In this document: positions 3,171 to 27,165 of the stretch, piece by piece
How positions within the stretch are numbered: position 1 is the stretch's first letter
Layout of the letters: each line of letters opens with the position of its first letter
Source of the DNA: Candidatus Latescibacterota bacterium
GTDB taxonomy: Bacteria; JAAXHH01
NCBI GenBank assembly: GCA_022822725.1
Contig: JAJEAN010000002.1
Coordinates: 1 to 64,000 of the forward strand
DNA length: 64,000 nucleotides
Reading direction: 5' to 3'
The notes under the pieces: model-generated
Seen by the model: only the letters and a program-made list of their open reading frames with translations
What the model was told of the DNA's origin: nothing
The model's database searches: none
Position numbers and translations under genes: made by a program

Positions 3171-4544
3171 TCACCGGGGTTGCAACGGTATGCCGCCGGG
3201 GTTGAGGACGTAGTTGGGATCGAACGCCCGTTTCCACGCCACCATACGGGGCCACAGCTCCCCGTAGTGGGCTTGCCAACGTTCTTGATCGAAATCGACC
3301 CAGCCGGCCAGATAGCGCTTCCCACCGAATGCGACCAGGCGGTCGCTTGCCTCCGCCAGCGCCGGCAGCACGCCCTCCAGCTCCGGCTGTGGAAGCTCGA
3401 TCAGGATACCGAACCCCATCAACAACTCGCCGTCCGGGCGCATCAACAGGGGCGATCGGAAGAGATGGTTGCGAAAGGGACCGAGCATCACGCGCGAGGC
3501 GCGCGCTACCGAGCCGGGGAGATCGGTAAACGTCTCTTCCATGAACGGGGCAAAAGCGTCCCACGGCAGTATGCCCTCCATATTGGGATGGGCCTGCCCC
3601 CAGTCCTCGAACCAGTCCGAGGCGGATCGGCCTTCCATGCGGGTGACGTACTGCAATGTGGGGCGATCGTCGGTCCCCCGCAGATGGGCATAGTGCAGAC
3701 TTTCCAGGACCTCGTCCCGATTCGGGGGAACCGCGTCCCATTCTTTGGTCAGGTTCAACGTATATAGCCGCCGGGCGAACAGGTTACCGGTCGCCACATC
3801 CCACATGCTGCGGGCGAAGGGCAGACACCAGGCGTCTATGTACTGGAATCGCTCCCACCCGACAATCGACTCCGTGTCCTGCATGAAAGCAGCTACATCG
3901 TCGTAGACAAGCGAGAAAGTGCGCACGTTTGGGAGCACCTTGCGCAACCGGAGCCGGGCTTCCGTAATCACGCCGAACTGTCCCTGTCCACAACGTACGC
4001 AGTCGAAGAGCGTCGCATTGCTTTCGTGGGAGCAGCGCATAAGGCGGCCGTCGCCCGTAACGACCTCCAGCTCGGTTGCGCTGTCGGCCTGCGTGCCGAA
4101 CAGGTGCGTCGATTCGCTGAGGCCGGCCGTGGAGAGCGTCCCACCCACTGTTACGCCCAGGTGCGTCGTGAGCGCCATCGGCAGGTAGCCCTCGGCGAAT
4201 ACCCGGTGGACGAGGTCGCGCCACCGAACGCCCCCCTGGACGCGGACCTGCCCGCCGTCTACCGCATCGATCCGGTCCAGCCCCTTCATGTCGATCAGGA
4301 CGCCGTCTTCGCTCAGTGACTGGCCGCTTTGCGAATGGCGTGCCCCCTGGAAGGTGACGGGGCAAGCCTCCCGGTTGGCCGCGGCGATGGTTTCCGCTAC
4401 TTCCCGGGGCGAGGAGGGACGGGCGATGGCCCTGGGCCGTTTTCGTACAACACGGCCGAAGTCAAAGCTGGCCGCATCCAGCGCCTCGTCGCCGGTTTCC
4501 ATACCGGTCAGATCCATGCGGCGCACATCAGCGTCGCGGCGCAT
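3171..4544 (-). CDS. FAD-binding (PCMH-type) oxidase, cytokinin-dehydrogenase-like
   Basis: A 457-residue FAD-linked oxidoreductase. The N-terminal FAD_binding_4 region has RPSSPREVAETIAAANR and then FQGARHSQSGQSL. His70 in that stretch occupies the place of the covalently flavinylated His in cytokinin dehydrogenase (GHS...GQ). The C-terminus, HYGELWPRMVAWKRAFDP then LNPG, also matches the cytokinin-dehydrogenase ending. Such enzymes remove hydride to form C=C or C=N bonds. The ATG at 4544 follows AGGGAC. It sits between the unknown gene (stop 4650) and the FMO-like gene (start 3096) on the same strand, so they are probably one operon. Dehydrogenation of a RiPP residue is a reasonable hypothesis but unproven. 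Confidence 0.78.
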   Translation of the reverse strand: MRRDADVRRMDLTGMETGDEALDAASFDFGRVVRKRPRAIARPSSPREVAETIAAANREACPVTFQGARHSQSGQSLSEDGVLIDMKGLDRIDAVDGGQVRVQGGVRWRDLVHRVFAEGYLPMALTTHLGVTVGGTLSTAGLSESTHLFGTQADSATELEVVTGDGRLMRCSHESNATLFDCVRCGQGQFGVITEARLRLRKVLPNVRTFSLVYDDVAAFMQDTESIVGWERFQYIDAWCLPFARSMWDVATGNLFARRLYTLNLTKEWDAVPPNRDEVLESLHYAHLRGTDDRPTLQYVTRMEGRSASDWFEDWGQAHPNMEGILPWDAFAPFMEETFTDLPGSVARASRVMLGPFRNHLFRSPLLMRPDGELLMGFGILIELPQPELEGVLPALAEASDRLVAFGGKRYLAGWVDFDQERWQAHYGELWPRMVAWKRAFDPNYVLNPGGIPLQPR

Positions 4545-17276: not shown

Positions 17277-18290
17277 ATGGCACTCACACAGGATCAGTTT
17301 CAACATTTCGTGGACGAAGGCTATGTCATCGTCGAAGACGCGCTCACCGGCAGCGACCTGGATCCCGTCATCGCCGGGATCGAAGCCTTTGTGGATGAAC
17401 GGGCCCGCAGCCTCCATGCAGACGGACAGATTACCGACCTGCACGAGGGCGAACCATTCGAACGGCGGCTTGCCCTGATCACCCGGGAAAATACCGCAAT
17501 CTACGACGACATCGATATCATGAACATGCGGGCCGAACCGGTATTCCGATTTCTCGGCAATGACCGCATGCTGGACCTGGTGGAATCCCTCGTCGGACCC
17601 GAACTCACCTGCAGTCCCATCCAGCATCTTCGGGCCAAGTTGCCGGCAGGTCTGGTGCGCGGTGGGAACGGAGATGCGGGCGACCAGGCCCACGGAGGAA
17701 GTGGCGATGTGGACGAACCGACCGCGCGCGATGTAAACCTGGCCGCACAAAATGAAGACCTGGCCGCGCGGATCAGGGAAAACGTGGCGCCCTGGCACCA
17801 GGACGCGCAGGTGCATCTCGAGGACGCCGACCCGGTGTTCATACTCACCGTCTGGCTGCCCCTGTGCGACACTGACGAAGAGAACGGATGCCTGCAGATC
17901 ATACCCCGCGTGCACCACAAGGGAATGGTGTACTGGAGCGAGGGATTCGGTATCGACGACGACGGGCTGCCCGAAGGCGAAGTCCTGTCCCTGCCGATGA
18001 AGAAGGGCGACGTGCTGCTCATGCACAAGCTGATCCCGCACCGGTCCATACCCAACCGATCGGGATCGATCCGGTGGAGCCTCGACCTGCGGTATCAGCA
18101 GACCGGCCTGCCCACGGGCCGCTCGTTCTACCCCAACTTCATCGTCCGCAGCCGGCGCCATCCCGAATTCGTGCTCACCGACTACAACACCTGGCGCCGC
18201 GGCTGGGAGGAGGCCTTGAAGGTCACCGCGCAGCGCCCGCCCCGCAAGGACCGTCCCACCGGGCCGACTCCGATTCGGATGTACGGGTAA
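17277..18290 (+). CDS. Phytanoyl-CoA dioxygenase (PhyH) family enzyme 2
   Basis: A 337-residue Fe(II)/2-oxoglutarate oxygenase, longer than its neighbours. The triad is His174 and Asp176 (APWHQDAQVH) and His255 (KLIPHRSIPNRSG). A Gly/Asp-rich insertion at about residues 128-148 (NGDAGDQAHGGSGDVDE) precedes the metal site and probably forms a loop. It lies 64 bases after PhyH 1 on the same strand, so the sialidase-like gene and the two PhyH genes may form one transcript. Substrate unknown. Confidence 0.9.
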   Translation: MALTQDQFQHFVDEGYVIVEDALTGSDLDPVIAGIEAFVDERARSLHADGQITDLHEGEPFERRLALITRENTAIYDDIDIMNMRAEPVFRFLGNDRMLDLVESLVGPELTCSPIQHLRAKLPAGLVRGGNGDAGDQAHGGSGDVDEPTARDVNLAAQNEDLAARIRENVAPWHQDAQVHLEDADPVFILTVWLPLCDTDEENGCLQIIPRVHHKGMVYWSEGFGIDDDGLPEGEVLSLPMKKGDVLLMHKLIPHRSIPNRSGSIRWSLDLRYQQTGLPTGRSFYPNFIVRSRRHPEFVLTDYNTWRRGWEEALKVTAQRPPRKDRPTGPTPIRMYG

Positions 18291-20821: not shown

Positions 20822-21130
20822 CGGCGATCGGGGGTATCAGACGATGTCCAGCATCTTGTTGGCGTAGTCTTTTCCCGCTGTAGGCGATCATCTTCTGACC
20901 ATTCCACTATTTTCACATATCTAGCACTCGTCTTCATTTCTGTGATTCCTTAATTGCTACCCGAATGGCCTGTTCCTGGTAGTTTCTGGCATCGTCGCCG
21001 AGGTGCAAGGAAGGTATTGGCGAAGAATCTGTCAAGCAGGATGCGGTGTATCATTTTCATACGAACGAAACTCAGATACGCGGTGTTATAGTACTGAAGC
21101 CGGCGAAGAATTGAGGAGTGCAGCATCCAT
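20822..21130. other. 309-base gap with a possible C-terminal gene remnant
   Basis: No intact gene. On the minus strand, about 20840-20880 reads AGKDYANKMLDIV then a stop, like the end of a protein, with a stop in the same frame just upstream, so it may be a degraded 3' gene end. The rest probably holds the promoter of the ECF sigma operon starting at 21131. I could not identify a convincing ECF-type promoter. Confidence 0.35.
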
Positions 21131-21679
21131 ATGAGTGGTGTAAATGAACAATGCATCGCGCTGGAAATCCATCGCGGCAACAGAAAGGCGGTGGCGGACC
21201 TGGTGGCGGCGTACAAGGACAGACTCTTCACCTACGCCTTCCATATGCTCGGTGGTTCGGACGACGCCCTCGACGTTACGCAGGAAGCCTTCGTCAAGGC
21301 CTACGTCACGCTCACCGGAAAGTACGACGCGGAGCGGTGCAGGACGCTCGAAATCGGCCCCTGGCTTTACCGCATCGTGCGGAACCTGGCGCTGAACCGA
21401 CTGAGGTCGCGCAAAAGCATGACCGGTGTAGTAGACAGGATGAAAGAGGAAGTTCAGTCCTTTGTCCCCGGGAACGACATGGCAAGGACGATCCGGACGG
21501 CCCTCGATAAACTGGGCAGGGAGAGCCGGGAACTGATCATCCTGCGATACATCGAGCAATACTCCTACGCGGAAATCGCGACGGTCACCGGCTCATCGGA
21601 ATCTGCGCTGCGGGGCAAGGTGTACCGGGCGCTCCGTAAACTTCGCAAGATAATGGAGGACGACCCCAGTGGATCGTAA
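21131..21679 (+). CDS. ECF-type RNA polymerase sigma factor
   Basis: A 182-residue sigma-70 family factor. Region 2 is at about residues 20-90 (AYKDRLFTYAFHMLGGSDDALDVTQEAFVKAY and PWLYRIVRNLALNRLRSRK). Region 4 is at about 115-175 (LDKLGRESRELIILRYIEQYSYAEIATVTG and a helix-turn-helix ending ALRGKVYRALRKLRK). Region 3 is absent, as in ECF factors. It overlaps the next gene by 11 bases, the classic sigma/anti-sigma arrangement, which suggests that protein is its partner. Confidence 0.9.
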   Translation: MSGVNEQCIALEIHRGNRKAVADLVAAYKDRLFTYAFHMLGGSDDALDVTQEAFVKAYVTLTGKYDAERCRTLEIGPWLYRIVRNLALNRLRSRKSMTGVVDRMKEEVQSFVPGNDMARTIRTALDKLGRESRELIILRYIEQYSYAEIATVTGSSESALRGKVYRALRKLRKIMEDDPSGS

Positions 21680-22577
21680 CGAATCGAAACAGTACCTGAA
21701 CCAGATCAGAACAGGCGAGGCGGACGAGGAAGCGAGCCGGTCCGAGGACGTGAGCCGGTCCGATGCGGAACAACTGGAAGCGTGTGCCGATAGCCGCGAA
21801 GAAGCCGCTTTCATGAAGCGTATGGCCGCGGCATCTCCCAAACTGAAAATGACCGCACCGGACGGGATCGAGGAGGAAGTGATGATCAGGATATCAGACC
21901 GGTATGATGTCATCGATACGGATTTCGGGCCGGCGCACGTGGGCTTCACGCCCAGGGGCATATCGGCGGTGAAACTCGACGTGGAGGAGGACGGTTCCTT
22001 CGAATCCTACTACAAAGAAAGGCTGGGACGGATTGTAGTCCGGGGTTCCCTGCCGGAGAAATTCGCCCGGGCAGTCAGGCGGACCATAAAAGGGGAGAAA
22101 ACCGGCAAACCGCCGGTCACCCTCGAGGGTTTGACCGAGTTCGAAAAGACGGTCCTCGAACATCTGGCCAGGATCCCGGCGGGCGAGGTCCGGCCCTATG
22201 CCTGGCTGGCCCGGGAAGTGGGAAGGCCGAAGGCGATCCGTGCCGTCGGAACGGTCATGGCCCGCAATCCCGTACCCTTCCTGATGCCCTGTCACCGGCT
22301 TGTCCCCTCGACCGGGGGCGTGGGGAACTATTACTACGGACCGGAAATGAAATGGATCCTGCTGGAGCGGGAGGGGATCGCCAGAAAAGACCTCGCGGGC
22401 TGGAAGCAGCGCGGCGTGCGCTTCATCGGCAGCCGCACGACGGGCATCTACTGTTATCCGACTTGCCGCAATGCACGGCGTATCCAGCAGCAGCATCGCA
22501 TGGAATTCAGCAGTCCCGACGAGGCGGCGGAAAACGGGTGCCGGCCGTGCAAATACTGCAGGCCACTGTCGCTGTAG
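21669..22577 (+). CDS. Putative sigma-factor partner fused to alkylated-DNA-protein Cys methyltransferase and Ada zinc domain
   Basis: A 302-residue protein of unusual architecture. Residues 1-75 are acidic, as in a sigma-binding segment, but lack the HxxxCxxC of ZAS anti-sigma factors. Residues 78-235 are an OGT/MGMT-type domain with the acceptor Cys208 in MPCHRLVPS. Residues 250-302 are an Ada-type zinc domain (RTTGIYCYPTC, then CRPCKYCRPL) with Cys262, Cys266, Cys294 and Cys297 at Ada-like spacing. E. coli Ada has the zinc domain first and an AraC-type HTH; here the order is reversed and no HTH is seen. The start is GTG at 21669 inside the sigma gene. I infer that it repairs alkyl damage and signals it to the sigma factor. 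Confidence 0.82.
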   Translation: MDRNESKQYLNQIRTGEADEEASRSEDVSRSDAEQLEACADSREEAAFMKRMAAASPKLKMTAPDGIEEEVMIRISDRYDVIDTDFGPAHVGFTPRGISAVKLDVEEDGSFESYYKERLGRIVVRGSLPEKFARAVRRTIKGEKTGKPPVTLEGLTEFEKTVLEHLARIPAGEVRPYAWLAREVGRPKAIRAVGTVMARNPVPFLMPCHRLVPSTGGVGNYYYGPEMKWILLEREGIARKDLAGWKQRGVRFIGSRTTGIYCYPTCRNARRIQQQHRMEFSSPDEAAENGCRPCKYCRPLSL

Positions 22578-22896: not shown

Positions 22897-23730
22897 CTAC
22901 CGGTTTCGCGGAGGAATATTGTCGCCAACGGGTCGGGGTATGGGTCTCCAGTAGCCCGATGGATCGCTGCCCCGGCAGATCACGGCGCGGTGGTATTCCG
23001 GATAACGTCCCCGCACGTCAGGCGGAAGGTACCGTATCGTCAGGCCGCATCGGCGGCGGTCGGATACGTTCGGCTCGGATCCGTGCAACAGCAGGTCGGT
23101 GTGCATGGAGATCTGGCCCGCCTTCATGACGAAGGGCACGGGGTCGCCGCCCCACCTGAGCGGGTCGTGGACGGTCTGCCCCAGCACGTTCTTCTCGGCT
23201 TTCGTGCTGTTCTCGAAGGGGATCTGTCCATGGAGGTGGGAACCGGGGATGACCGTCATGGGCCCGTTTTCTTCGTCCACGTCGTCGATGGCCAGCCAGA
23301 TAGTCACCACCTTGCTCGGGGTCAGGGGCCAGTAGGACGCGTCCTGGTGCCAGCTCACCCGCTGCACGTCGCCCGGCATCTTGCAGAAGTAGTGGGTCAT
23401 CTCGCAGATCAGCGTTTCCCCGAGCAGGTCTTCCGCGTAGGCCAGTATCCGCTGGTTCATGGCCAGGTTGTAGATGCCCTCGCAATGCCGCTGCCAGCCG
23501 TTGATCGAGTAGCTGTTGTAGCCTTCCTGCTCAGCGCGGGCCATCAGGTCTTCGAAATACAGGCGGTTCTCCTCGGCCTCCTGCGGCGTAAAAACGTCCA
23601 GGGGGCAGAGATATCCGTTTGCGTTGAAAAAGTCGACCTGTTCGCGCGAAAGCGTCCTGGGACGATCGGCTTTTGCCGGGAAGAAACGCAGTTCCCGCTT
23701 CATTTCAGGCAGGGCATCGGTGATGGGCAT
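22897..23730 (-). CDS. Phytanoyl-CoA dioxygenase (PhyH) family enzyme 3
   Basis: A 277-residue Fe(II)/2-oxoglutarate oxygenase. Metal ligands are His128 and Asp130 (VSWHQDASYW) and His216 (LLLHGSEPNVSDRRR). The core has IWLAIDDVDEENGPMTVIPGSH, a layout close to EctD-like and phytanoyl hydroxylases. It stands alone upstream of the small gene at 22652 on the same strand (44-base gap). Substrate unknown. Confidence 0.9.
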   Translation of the reverse strand: MPITDALPEMKRELRFFPAKADRPRTLSREQVDFFNANGYLCPLDVFTPQEAEENRLYFEDLMARAEQEGYNSYSINGWQRHCEGIYNLAMNQRILAYAEDLLGETLICEMTHYFCKMPGDVQRVSWHQDASYWPLTPSKVVTIWLAIDDVDEENGPMTVIPGSHLHGQIPFENSTKAEKNVLGQTVHDPLRWGGDPVPFVMKAGQISMHTDLLLHGSEPNVSDRRRCGLTIRYLPPDVRGRYPEYHRAVICRGSDPSGYWRPIPRPVGDNIPPRNR

Positions 23731-23937: not shown

Positions 23938-24801
23938 ATGGATGATACCACGAGCAGGGCGCTTATCTCGCTCGACCTCGCTCCGGGCGCGTCGCTTGAC
24001 GACGTGAAGAAATCGTACCGGGAACTGGCGCTCATATGGCATCCGGACAAGGTGCCTGACCGGGTGAAAGACCGGGCCACCGCCAAGTTCACGGAGATCA
24101 ACGAGGCCTACCAGTGGCTCGTCCGGCATCCGGAAAACCTGCGGATGCCTTCGTCTTCCAGGTCATCAGCCCACCAGCGATCGTCGCCTGGCTATCGCAC
24201 TTCCTCGCAGACGCGCCAATCCCAGTCGGAGCGTCCCCGATCGGAGTATGCCCGGCCTGGCGCGTCCGGTCGAACGGGGCCCGGTGCAACACGGTCCGGC
24301 GCGTCGCGGTCCGGCGCATCGCGGTCCGGCGCTTCCTGGACCGACCCTTCCGGCCGCGCGGGAGCCGGGTCGTCCACCGATCCAGCAGTGCAACGTGTCC
24401 GACAGGCCGCCCGTGGCATCTGGACTGATACCCGTGCGGGCCTGTACATCTACCCCGATATCGACGCCGACCGGGCAGCGAACTACATCGTTGCGCTGCA
24501 AAGCAATCCAGCCTTCAGTGGCGTGGCCTCGACGGTGAATGACCTGCTGGTATTATACGATATCGATGGGTCCGGCGAGGAAGGCATGGCCATCACCCGG
24601 TCCAACCACCTGGTCAACAACAACCTCGGGACACGGTACGACATCGGCGACCTGGTGGAAGTCCGACTGAAGGAAGGGTTCTTCTTCTGGAGCGAAATTG
24701 TGGTTCGCAGACGAGGAAGTAGGACGTTCGAACTCGCGGGATATGCCGAAAACGGACCGGGACGGGCGATGGTGAGTATTCTGCGGAACCTGATCGGATA
24801 A
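23938..24801 (+). CDS. J-domain protein with a novel-looking C-terminal domain
   Basis: A 287-residue protein. An N-terminal J domain (residues 5-65) has the HPD motif at residues 35-37 (LALIWHPDKVPDR), so it can stimulate a DnaK/Hsp70 ATPase. A Ser/Arg/Gly linker (about 78-145, with SRSGAS repeats) follows. The C-terminal beta-rich domain is about 155-287 (GLYIYPDID, YDIGDLVEVRLKEGFFFWSEIVV, PGRAMVSILRNLIG). It has no zinc-finger or DnaJ C-terminal domains, so it is not DnaJ itself. It converges with the helicase gene (2-base gap). Confidence 0.8.
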   Translation: MDDTTSRALISLDLAPGASLDDVKKSYRELALIWHPDKVPDRVKDRATAKFTEINEAYQWLVRHPENLRMPSSSRSSAHQRSSPGYRTSSQTRQSQSERPRSEYARPGASGRTGPGATRSGASRSGASRSGASWTDPSGRAGAGSSTDPAVQRVRQAARGIWTDTRAGLYIYPDIDADRAANYIVALQSNPAFSGVASTVNDLLVLYDIDGSGEEGMAITRSNHLVNNNLGTRYDIGDLVEVRLKEGFFFWSEIVVRRRGSRTFELAGYAENGPGRAMVSILRNLIG

Positions 24802-24803
24802 CG

Positions 24804-26963
24804 CTATTTCGCCAGGACCTTCCTGAACCGGGCGATCGTCTCCTCGTCCAGGTCTTCGATCTGCACTTCGCCGGATTCGAGCTCATGCAGAAGATCATCC
24901 AGATGCCTGTCGCGGTTCCTGAGGCGTTTGGAATCTGCCGTGGTCATATCCCGGTGGATGAGCCGCAAGCGCTCCCGCTGCGCTGAAGTCGGATAGGTAA
25001 ACCGCAACTCGAAACGCCGCGCTTTCAGTTTTTCATACTCTGATTTCAACATGGTCATGGACTGGCCGTAGCCGAGTATGCGAACCCACGCTTTGCTTCG
25101 CGTAATCGCCGTAAACAGGCAGTTACGCACGCTCGCCAGATTACGGACCGCGGCATGGCAGTCCTGGGCGTTGATGATATAGACCATCCCGGCTTCGTTG
25201 CCCTTGGCGCGGTGAATCCCGGTCAAGGTCACCGATGCTTTGCCCGGTCGAAAGAAGGTATTCGGATTCGTATCGACTCCGGCGAGATGGGCGCGGATGC
25301 CCAGTCCTTTCAAACGGCTGCGTATCGGTTCGATACTCTCTCTTGTCGTACGAGGATTGGGGTTGATGACCATGATGTCGTCGTGTCGAAGTTCGTCCTT
25401 GAGGAGGTTTTCGGCAATGGCCTCCGCCAGCCAGTCCGCCTGTTCATCATGGTTTCTGAAGGAGATAAAACGAATCAAGTCGTCGATGTCGGTATGGTCT
25501 TCCAGAAATCGCGGACTCGCGTCTTCTGTTCTGTCAAGCGTTACGTCCGAGCCGTCGCGCAATGCGCCGTCCAGCACGCTGTAACCGATTTCTTCCCACA
25601 AATGAGCCCGGTCGAACATCTGCACCAGACCGGTACCCGACTCATGGGACGGTTTCCGGTATATGCCGAATCCAAGGGCAAACGCCGTGGCCAGTACCGG
25701 CTTCGAGTTGCGGTAACATTTCGACAGCATGATATCGCGTTGAGGCGTGAGTTGACTGGTTTCGTCAAACCGAACTTTGGGCGATCCATCCGCGCTATTC
25801 CCGAAAATCTCTTCCGGAGAAGGCAGGGAACTGCCGCGAAGACTCTGCAGTTCGTCATAGGCATACACCAGTCTTTGGGGAGGTTTGAGCAGTGTGTAAC
25901 AAAGCCTCAGAAACCTGGGCGGTAAATCCTGCGCCTCGTCGACAAGCATCGCGTCGTAGACCGGCACGAGATTACTTGTATAAGAAAGGGCATATTCGCA
26001 CGCTCCCTCGAACTCCCTGCCCGGTCCGAATCTGGCGCGCGCCTTTCCAAAGTCGAAAAACGCCATGCCGTGCAGACGACAGTACTCGGCATAAACGCCC
26101 CCGCGATCCTTTCCATGCCAGGCACCCCAGGCGTTTACGATGCGCAACTTGTTCCAATCTGGCTCTTCCCCGGTCTGCTCTAAGAAGAAGTTGTTGATCA
26201 GGCGTCGAAAATGATCCTTGAGGGAACGGGAATTGAACGTGACTGCGATGCGCCAGTCGGGATGATCCGCATGGAGATAAGCCGCTTTCAGCGCCAGTAT
26301 GATGGTTTTGCCCGAACCCGCCAGGCCGCGAATACGTTGGACGCCTTCGACCGTTTCTATCACGGCTCGATTCTGCATGTTGTCCAGCGTCGCGATTGAT
26401 TTCTCGAGTTTTAACAGCTTAGCGCCACGCGTATCCTCCTCCGCAACACGTCGGCTGAATCCCCTTTTGCGCATCGAGGAGATGTGCTCGATCGCCGACA
26501 GCACCTTCGCACACATATCCCGGCCATGCGGACACGACCAGGTGAACCGGTTCAATTCCTGAATGAGTGAGGAGGTGTTCGCGAGAGGATAAGACTCGGA
26601 ACGATTCGAATCCGGATTACTCAGTGCGGGGGCGAAAGAAATGGTATGTAGGGGAACCATCAGGTCCCGGCGCCGCATCAGTTCCTGGTGTGTCTTAAGC
26701 CGGGCTTCAAGCTTGTTGGCCGAATCGTCCTGCCGCGCCTCGTAATCACCCGTTTCGTGTCCCTCGATGAGATCGAAAACGACAACGCCCATATCAGCCG
26801 AAACCAGCAGGGCGTCAATCATCTGGAGTCCTTCGGACGTGCCGAAAATCGGATAACCGACGAACAGGTGCCCCGACCAGGCGGACTGCTTTGAAACAAT
26901 TTCCACCAGGGCATCGCTTGACACGGGCTTCTGGCTGGTACCACGAACGGTCTCGATACTCAT
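24804..26963 (-). CDS. UvrD/Rep-like superfamily 1 helicase-type ATPase
   Basis: About 719 residues. The N-terminal 200 residues suggest a nuclease-like or NERD-type domain (MGVVVFDLIEGHETGDY). The motor has Walker A RGLAGSGKTIILALKAAYL, Walker B YDAMLVDEAQDLP, LVYAYDELQSL and a UvrD_C_2-type end, ASVTLTGIHRAKGNEAGMVYIIN with LFTAITRSKAWVRILG. I prefer the ATG at 26963 (SD GGAAGGA) over a frame extended to 27020. Such stand-alone NERD/UvrD proteins are common in accessory regions; a DNA-repair or anti-phage role is inferred. A J-domain gene end lies on one side and a remnant copy of it on the other. Confidence 0.75.
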   Translation of the reverse strand: MSIETVRGTSQKPVSSDALVEIVSKQSAWSGHLFVGYPIFGTSEGLQMIDALLVSADMGVVVFDLIEGHETGDYEARQDDSANKLEARLKTHQELMRRRDLMVPLHTISFAPALSNPDSNRSESYPLANTSSLIQELNRFTWSCPHGRDMCAKVLSAIEHISSMRKRGFSRRVAEEDTRGAKLLKLEKSIATLDNMQNRAVIETVEGVQRIRGLAGSGKTIILALKAAYLHADHPDWRIAVTFNSRSLKDHFRRLINNFFLEQTGEEPDWNKLRIVNAWGAWHGKDRGGVYAEYCRLHGMAFFDFGKARARFGPGREFEGACEYALSYTSNLVPVYDAMLVDEAQDLPPRFLRLCYTLLKPPQRLVYAYDELQSLRGSSLPSPEEIFGNSADGSPKVRFDETSQLTPQRDIMLSKCYRNSKPVLATAFALGFGIYRKPSHESGTGLVQMFDRAHLWEEIGYSVLDGALRDGSDVTLDRTEDASPRFLEDHTDIDDLIRFISFRNHDEQADWLAEAIAENLLKDELRHDDIMVINPNPRTTRESIEPIRSRLKGLGIRAHLAGVDTNPNTFFRPGKASVTLTGIHRAKGNEAGMVYIINAQDCHAAVRNLASVRNCLFTAITRSKAWVRILGYGQSMTMLKSEYEKLKARRFELRFTYPTSAQRERLRLIHRDMTTADSKRLRNRDRHLDDLLHELESGEVQIEDLDEETIARFRKVLAK

Positions 26964-27165
26964 GACGATTCCTTCCGGCGGGTCGCTTCCACGATCGCAC
27001 AACGCACGCGCAACGCACACGTTTTCAGCAATACGAAAGCGACGGGTTCTTATGCAGTCCGGTTGCAGCCAGGCCGGCTGTCTATACAGACTGCGTTCTT
27101 ACGATTGTGTAATTGATTAGTAGTAAAAAACGGTGGATTCTTGTTCTAAAGTACGAGATGGTGGG

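Follow-up and report, generated by a model that had tools for sequence, protein, structure and literature searches.

Two overlapping forward-strand genes, for an ECF sigma factor and for a protein that combines a putative anti-sigma domain with OGT and Ada-Zn domains, lie within the window, the 64,000-nucleotide stretch of a Candidatus Latescibacterota genome that was analysed. The sigma gene (21131–21679, forward strand) encodes 182 amino acids with regions 2 and 4 (Pfam Sigma70_r2, 2.5e-12; Sigma70_r4_2, 6e-13) and without region 3, the composition expected of an ECF sigma, and its product matches the NCBIfam sigma70-ECF superfamily (TIGR02937, 1e-23). The partner gene (21669–22577, forward strand) begins with GTG and encodes 302 amino acids, for which AlphaFold2 gave a model with a mean pLDDT of 87.6. 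The overlap of 11 nucleotides between the genes, already reported in a first-pass annotation of this DNA, is exact. A wrong start or a frameshift was ruled out, because both the GTG start and the overlap recur across the genus.

The OGT portion of the partner comprises an N-terminal subdomain (residues 77–155; 21897–22133, forward strand), assigned by alignment to the C-terminal half of Escherichia coli Ada (PDB 1sfe, aligned to residues 76–236), and a catalytic and DNA-binding domain (residues 157–237; 22137–22379, forward strand; Pfam PF01035 DNA_binding_1, 3.3e-25). Foldseek matched the OGT domain to 1sfe at 4.7e-12. The acceptor residue proposed earlier, Cys208 in a PCHR motif (codon 22290–22292, forward strand), lies within the matched domain and is kept in 54 of 54 aligned relatives. 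Also as first read, the protein ends in an Ada zinc domain with all four cysteines (residues 249–299; 22413–22565, forward strand; Pfam PF02805 Ada_Zn_binding, 1.4e-9); Cys262, Cys266, Cys294 and Cys297 are kept in every row that reaches this domain (49–50 of 54 rows). Residues 29–74 of E. coli Ada (PDB 1adn) align to partner residues 253–299, which places Cys262 opposite Ada Cys38. No other protein with an Ada-Zn domain is encoded in the window's genome.

E. coli Ada likewise carries a four-cysteine Ada-Zn domain and an OGT PCHR motif in one protein and is autoregulated; the window partner differs in its domain order, in its lack of an AraC-type helix–turn–helix (HTH) and in an output that would pass through a separate ECF sigma. 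The Pfam matches place OGT before Ada-Zn and so bear out the reversed order that had been noted. The accompanying statement that no HTH is present needs qualification: a Pfam scan of the partner at E values of up to 1 found no AraC-type HTH, although the name that Pfam gives to the OGT core denotes a DNA-binding domain.

The description of the partner's N-terminus as merely acidic proved too narrow. We interpret this region, on the basis of sequence likeness, predicted helices and gene position, as a class I anti-sigma domain (ASDI/ZAS); that it binds and inhibits the sigma factor is inferred. A profile built from the N-termini of the family found ChrR (2q1z and 2z2s; E = 0.0015 and 0.0016) and RsiW (5wuq; E = 0.0049) as the top three of 177,635 PDB sequences. 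The copy in another genus of the same family (locus L014 in genome G013) shows the canonical zinc motif of anti-sigmas at its start and matches Pfam zf-HC2 at 26.6 bits against a cut-off of 22.2; this is the only copy above the cut-off, and the window's own N-terminus has no Pfam match. The AlphaFold2 model of the window partner contains helices at residues 3–15, 20–24, 26–38 and 40–55, then a linker and a helix at 67–75, and thus has the class I layout of bundle, linker and fourth helix, at moderate confidence (N-terminal pLDDT of about 56–76). The bundle spans residues 3–55 (21675–21833, forward strand), and the linker with the fourth helix spans residues 56–76 (21834–21896, forward strand). 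A model of the N-terminus alone (pLDDT 56.5) gave 0 fold matches in the PDB, so the fold is unconfirmed by structure comparison. The position of the gene beside that of its ECF sigma, a further feature of class I anti-sigmas, is found in 13 of 13 cases in the family and at 69 of 77 loci in a wider scan (below). The anti-sigma domain match is independent support for the earlier suggestion of sigma binding by the N-terminus, in the absence of any binding data.

The zinc site itself has mostly decayed in the window protein. Its ligand positions are occupied by Arg3, Gln35, Cys39 and Ser42, so that the motif reads Q-x3-C-x2-S rather than Hx3Cx2C, and only Cys39 of the four ligands remains. Two copies in the genus retain Hx3Cx2C and the remaining ones, the window's included, are ligand-depleted; across the scan the motif is intact at 6 of 77 loci, L014 among them. 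Its absence from the window protein is not decisive, because Hx3Cx2C is missing from about 44% of class I anti-sigmas according to the accessible portion of a published survey (PMC7406223). The same portion describes helices 1–3 of class I anti-sigmas as binding sigma region 4 and helix 4 as binding region 2 (PMC7406223).

Outside the window's clade and three Chloroflexota loci (L097, L098 and L100), the N-terminus is short, has no bundle and shows a conserved L..L..L..AP.GL..RV pattern. Most relatives in the Actinomycetota and Chloroflexota thus lack the bundle and keep only a piece resembling helix 4. These short N-termini aligned to the part of the window family's protein that comprises the linker and helix 4, at an hhalign E value of 1.4e-4 and with a probability of only 53%; Pro64, in the linker, is conserved at 90% or more over 54 rows. 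The three Chloroflexota loci have Hx3Cx2C motifs and no Ada-Zn domain. At one of them (L097, positions 3869–4138), two successive C...HxxxCxxC stretches occur, as if a zinc anti-sigma domain had been duplicated. Within the genus (12 partner genes and 7 sigma genes), dN/dS is highest in the bundle (0.51) and lowest in the OGT core (0.04), with values of 0.19 for the linker and helix 4, 0.20 for the Ada-Zn domain and 0.29 for the sigma factor. We infer that the helix predicted to bind sigma region 2 is the common core of the domain, and that the bundle is optional.

The pairing of the two genes is conserved. The partner is present in 12 of 12 genomes of the genus and in G013, and the sigma gene adjoins it in 13 of 13 cases. 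None of 16 ordinary OGT genes in the same phylum has a sigma neighbour, and the window's genome of 3.8 Mb encodes 19 proteins with sigma-70 region 2; on these figures, chance neighbourhood was rejected. When the GTDB genome collection was scanned with no query other than the partner protein, 77 loci were returned, of which 69 have an ECF sigma gene. The scan used only two peptide patterns, and the family is therefore under-sampled. Sixty-seven loci from several phyla encode both OGT and Ada-Zn domains (L037, whose Ada-Zn domain is cut off by the end of its contig, was added to this count manually); an ECF gene lies directly upstream in 65 of them and the other two begin at contig edges, with no room for a sigma gene at L049 and L050. 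Four sigma-linked loci have no Ada-Zn domain, and six further loci represent different OGT architectures without a sigma gene. A lack of conserved sigma linkage had been named at the outset as the result that would refute the idea of a damage-responsive sigma switch; the linkage instead extends across phyla.

Stop and start codons of the sigma and partner genes overlap by 4 nucleotides at 41 of the 69 sigma-linked loci. Over the 69 pairs, tree distances of sigma and partner are correlated (r = 0.87, against a permuted maximum of 0.26); shared descent alone gives such a correlation too. Both trees contain a clade of eight that consists of the window's family and the G013-type copy.

An ECF-type promoter precedes the sigma gene (21062–21090, forward strand), with a -35-like element, CGAACGAA, at 21062–21069 and a -10-like element, GGTGTT, at 21082–21087 that is followed by ATA. 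Sequences upstream of the sigma gene have diverged within the genus except for CGAACGAA-N12-GGTGTTNTA. The window promoter matches the consensus CRAACRAA-N12-GGTGTTNTA with 0 mismatches; of the genus genomes searched, 11 of 11 have such a site at their sigma gene. The sigma gene is preceded by the same -35 and -10 elements at the same spacing (GCAAC-N15-GGTGTT) in other phyla as well, among them Actinomycetota and Chloroflexota. A promoter score of at least 9 out of 11 was reached at 52 of 68 loci across phyla, compared with 4.0% of shuffles; one of the 69 sigma genes lies too near a contig start to be scored. The loci scored were also those from which the motif had been derived, and the shuffles were single-letter. 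The conserved promoter before the sigma gene implies autoregulation.

Evidence for targets beyond the operon is sparse. Sites with 0 mismatches in the window's genome are limited to the sigma-operon promoter, and the promoter-site search found no alkylation-repair target there beyond the operon itself. A wider regulon in this genome was considered and rejected, with only one second site, at 2 mismatches and without a plausible gene start. Exact matches to T plus GCAAC-N15-GGTGTT numbered 12 in 12 other genomes (8 of the 12 have one), compared with 0 for the reversed control; five of the 12 sites lie directly before the sigma gene of the pair. A sixth, in G023, precedes an Oxygenase-NA gene that is cut by a contig end. 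As the end of such a gene also lies just before the sigma gene in the same genome, this site probably belongs to the same operon as the sigma gene.

Two further candidate targets came from the site searches. A sigma-type site lies a short way upstream of a gene for a MOSC_N+MOSC protein in 5 of the 11 genus genomes (L120, L121, L122, G002:C49 and G010:C35); the window's genome has the MOSC gene without such a site, and the protein was rejected as a general target on this count. E. coli YcbX, a MOSC protein, detoxifies N-hydroxylated base analogues. Separately, a short-chain dehydrogenase gene in three Nonomuraea genomes (L171, L173 and L174) has a GCAAC-N15-GGTGTT site upstream. Its status as a sigma target is undecided, because two of the three genomes have a further ECF gene downstream, to which the promoter may belong.

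Of the neighbour open reading frames listed around the sigma–OGT loci, 128 of 151 were scanned. Pfam Oxygenase-NA, a 'damaged DNA' oxygenase family, was found in the fetched flanks of 5 of the 69 loci (L041, L044, L056, L096 and L099). Besides Oxygenase-NA (3 members) and MFS (5), no repair-related neighbour stood out among the best 25 of 106 families. Only 9 of 36 sigma–OGT genomes encode a member of the Oxygenase-NA family; in five Nonomuraea genomes the gene lies elsewhere than at the sigma–OGT locus, and no clear sigma promoter was established before these Nonomuraea genes. Near the window operon are two genes of the phytanoyl-CoA dioxygenase (PhyH) family (17277–18290 and 22897–23730), a gene for a DnaJ-domain protein of 287 amino acids with a repeat-rich Ser/Arg/Gly middle (23938–24801) and, adjoining the latter on the opposite strand, a UvrD-like helicase gene (24804–27020).

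Linkage of an ECF sigma with OGT is already known in outline. The available text of a 2022 review (PMC8999054) describes for group ECF122 a conserved 6-O-methylguanine DNA methyltransferase neighbour, lists the group among those without an anti-sigma and calls its mechanism as yet uncharacterised. The window locus resembles ECF122 in that OGT is conserved beside an ECF sigma gene, and this is probably the same linkage; membership of the window sigma in ECF122 is not established. In contrast to the group as that text describes it (PMC8999054), the OGT protein of the window carries putative anti-sigma and Ada-Zn domains, and the N-terminal domain, if it is an anti-sigma, would contradict the absence of one in this clade. 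For an ECF–OGT pair, literature searches limited to open-licence papers showed no anti-sigma domain, Ada-Zn domain order or cross-phylum promoter, nor, within the same limits, any anti-sigma described as carrying an OGT or Ada domain. Methylation of an OGT-type cysteine triggers the adaptive response of Caulobacter Cada2 without an Ada-Zn step; Cada2 differs in having its own sequence-specific DNA-binding domain, and no sigma partner is mentioned in the portion of the source available (PMC10957082).

The domains, the conserved linkage and overlap, and the conserved promoter before the sigma gene are computed directly. A stress sigma is co-produced, in several phyla, with a partner that seems to join a sigma-binding domain to the methyl-damage sensors of Ada. 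The best explanation, to which we assign a moderate probability, is an alkylation switch formed by sigma and anti-sigma, in which sigma binding, the trigger cysteine and the release of sigma (as opposed to another output) are inferred. Undamaged cells would hold the ECF sigma in the N-terminal anti-sigma domain of the 302-residue protein made from the same transcript. That protein would also be a repair enzyme, with Cys208 accepting a methyl group from O6-methylguanine and Cys262, the counterpart of Ada Cys38, from methyl phosphotriesters. The grip on sigma would loosen once either or both cysteines were irreversibly methylated, or through the DNA-bound state that accompanies methylation. The freed sigma could then transcribe its own operon from the GGTGTT promoter and raise the level of the sensor and repair protein, a positive feedback as in Ada; in some lineages it might also drive further genes, such as that for the Oxygenase-NA repair enzyme. 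The trigger in E. coli Ada is Cys38 and that in Cada2 is the PCHR cysteine, as far as the accessible parts of the sources go (PMC4437013, PMC10957082), so either Cys208 or Cys262 is plausible; only PCHR would be left for signalling in the four sigma-linked relatives that lack Ada-Zn.

ChrR, whose own sensor is a cupin-type domain for singlet oxygen, differs from the window partner, in which OGT and Ada-Zn would be the sensor. The two would be alike as soluble class I anti-sigmas with an N-terminal zinc-type domain and a C-terminal sensor, paired with an ECF sigma (ChrR–sigmaE of Rhodobacter, 2q1z).

Against the switch stand the rapid evolution of the bundle, its lack of a Pfam match and of all zinc ligands but Cys39 in the window, its absence from most relatives and the poor N-terminal-only model without a fold match, together with the want of a wider regulon in the window's genome and of a clear sigma promoter before the Nonomuraea Oxygenase-NA genes. 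Several of these observations would fit a partner that is only a repair enzyme, the main co-expressed target of a sigma controlled in some other way, with an N-terminal domain that is a relic or a spacer: the bundle would be under relaxed evolution, most relatives do without it, translational coupling alone could explain the linkage, and ECF122 is listed without an anti-sigma in the available review text (PMC8999054). We consider this unlikely, though not negligible. The sigma gene is always directly upstream and mostly overlapping, even where the flanking genes differ; the linker and helix-4 piece is kept and constrained (Pro64; dN/dS 0.19); and the N-terminus resembles ChrR and RsiW.

That piece could alone serve as a tether, which admits a different output: the N-terminus would tether sigma, and the methylated Ada-Zn domain would gain affinity for DNA and recruit the holoenzyme that contains sigma to the promoter of the operon; this would be the logic of Ada with sigma as a separate chain. 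Methylation of Cys38 makes E. coli Ada a DNA-binding activator, according to the available portions of the sources (PMC4437013, PMC10957082), and the Ada-Zn cysteines are fully conserved wherever the domain is present. Yet an upstream alignment inspected by eye revealed no conserved element besides -35 and -10, four sigma-linked relatives lack Ada-Zn, and the class I anti-sigma domains already known are inhibitors; we regard activation of this kind as improbable. A last rival makes the N-terminal zinc site the sensor, as it is in redox anti-sigmas already described, and gives OGT and Ada-Zn no part in signalling. It has in its favour the few loci with intact Hx3Cx2C, the family-level copy included, and is very hard to sustain given the loss of zinc ligands in the window and most of the genus beside invariant OGT and Ada-Zn cysteines.

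For the sigma/anti-sigma alkylation switch, the first-pass annotation is thus supported in its circuit logic and not in its biochemistry, in which sigma binding, methylation and release are inferred. Support stops at that logic because no computation shows any of these three steps, and because the bundle is missing outside the Latescibacterota clade and three Chloroflexota. With about as much to be said for it as against it, a broader reading is that the adaptive response of Ada was invented a second time, on the basis of sigma, in several phyla: an OGT/Ada-Zn anti-sigma that accepts an alkyl group would let go of its cognate ECF sigma, which would then drive its own operon, with the linker and helix 4 as the core grip on region 2 and the zinc bundle as an extra that lineages keep or drop.

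Current understanding of how bacteria adapt to DNA methylation rests on an Ada-type transcription factor. For an ECF group called uncharacterised and anti-sigma-free in the accessible review text (PMC8999054), the proposal supplies a mechanism specific enough to be tested, and it defines a promoter for reporters; relatives returned by the collection scan include Thermobifida fusca and Nonomuraea. If it is true, a sigma factor would be the output of the same methyl-to-cysteine chemistry in genomes that, like the window's, have no other Ada-Zn protein, and bacteria would have a second way to switch on DNA repair after chemical methylation of their DNA.
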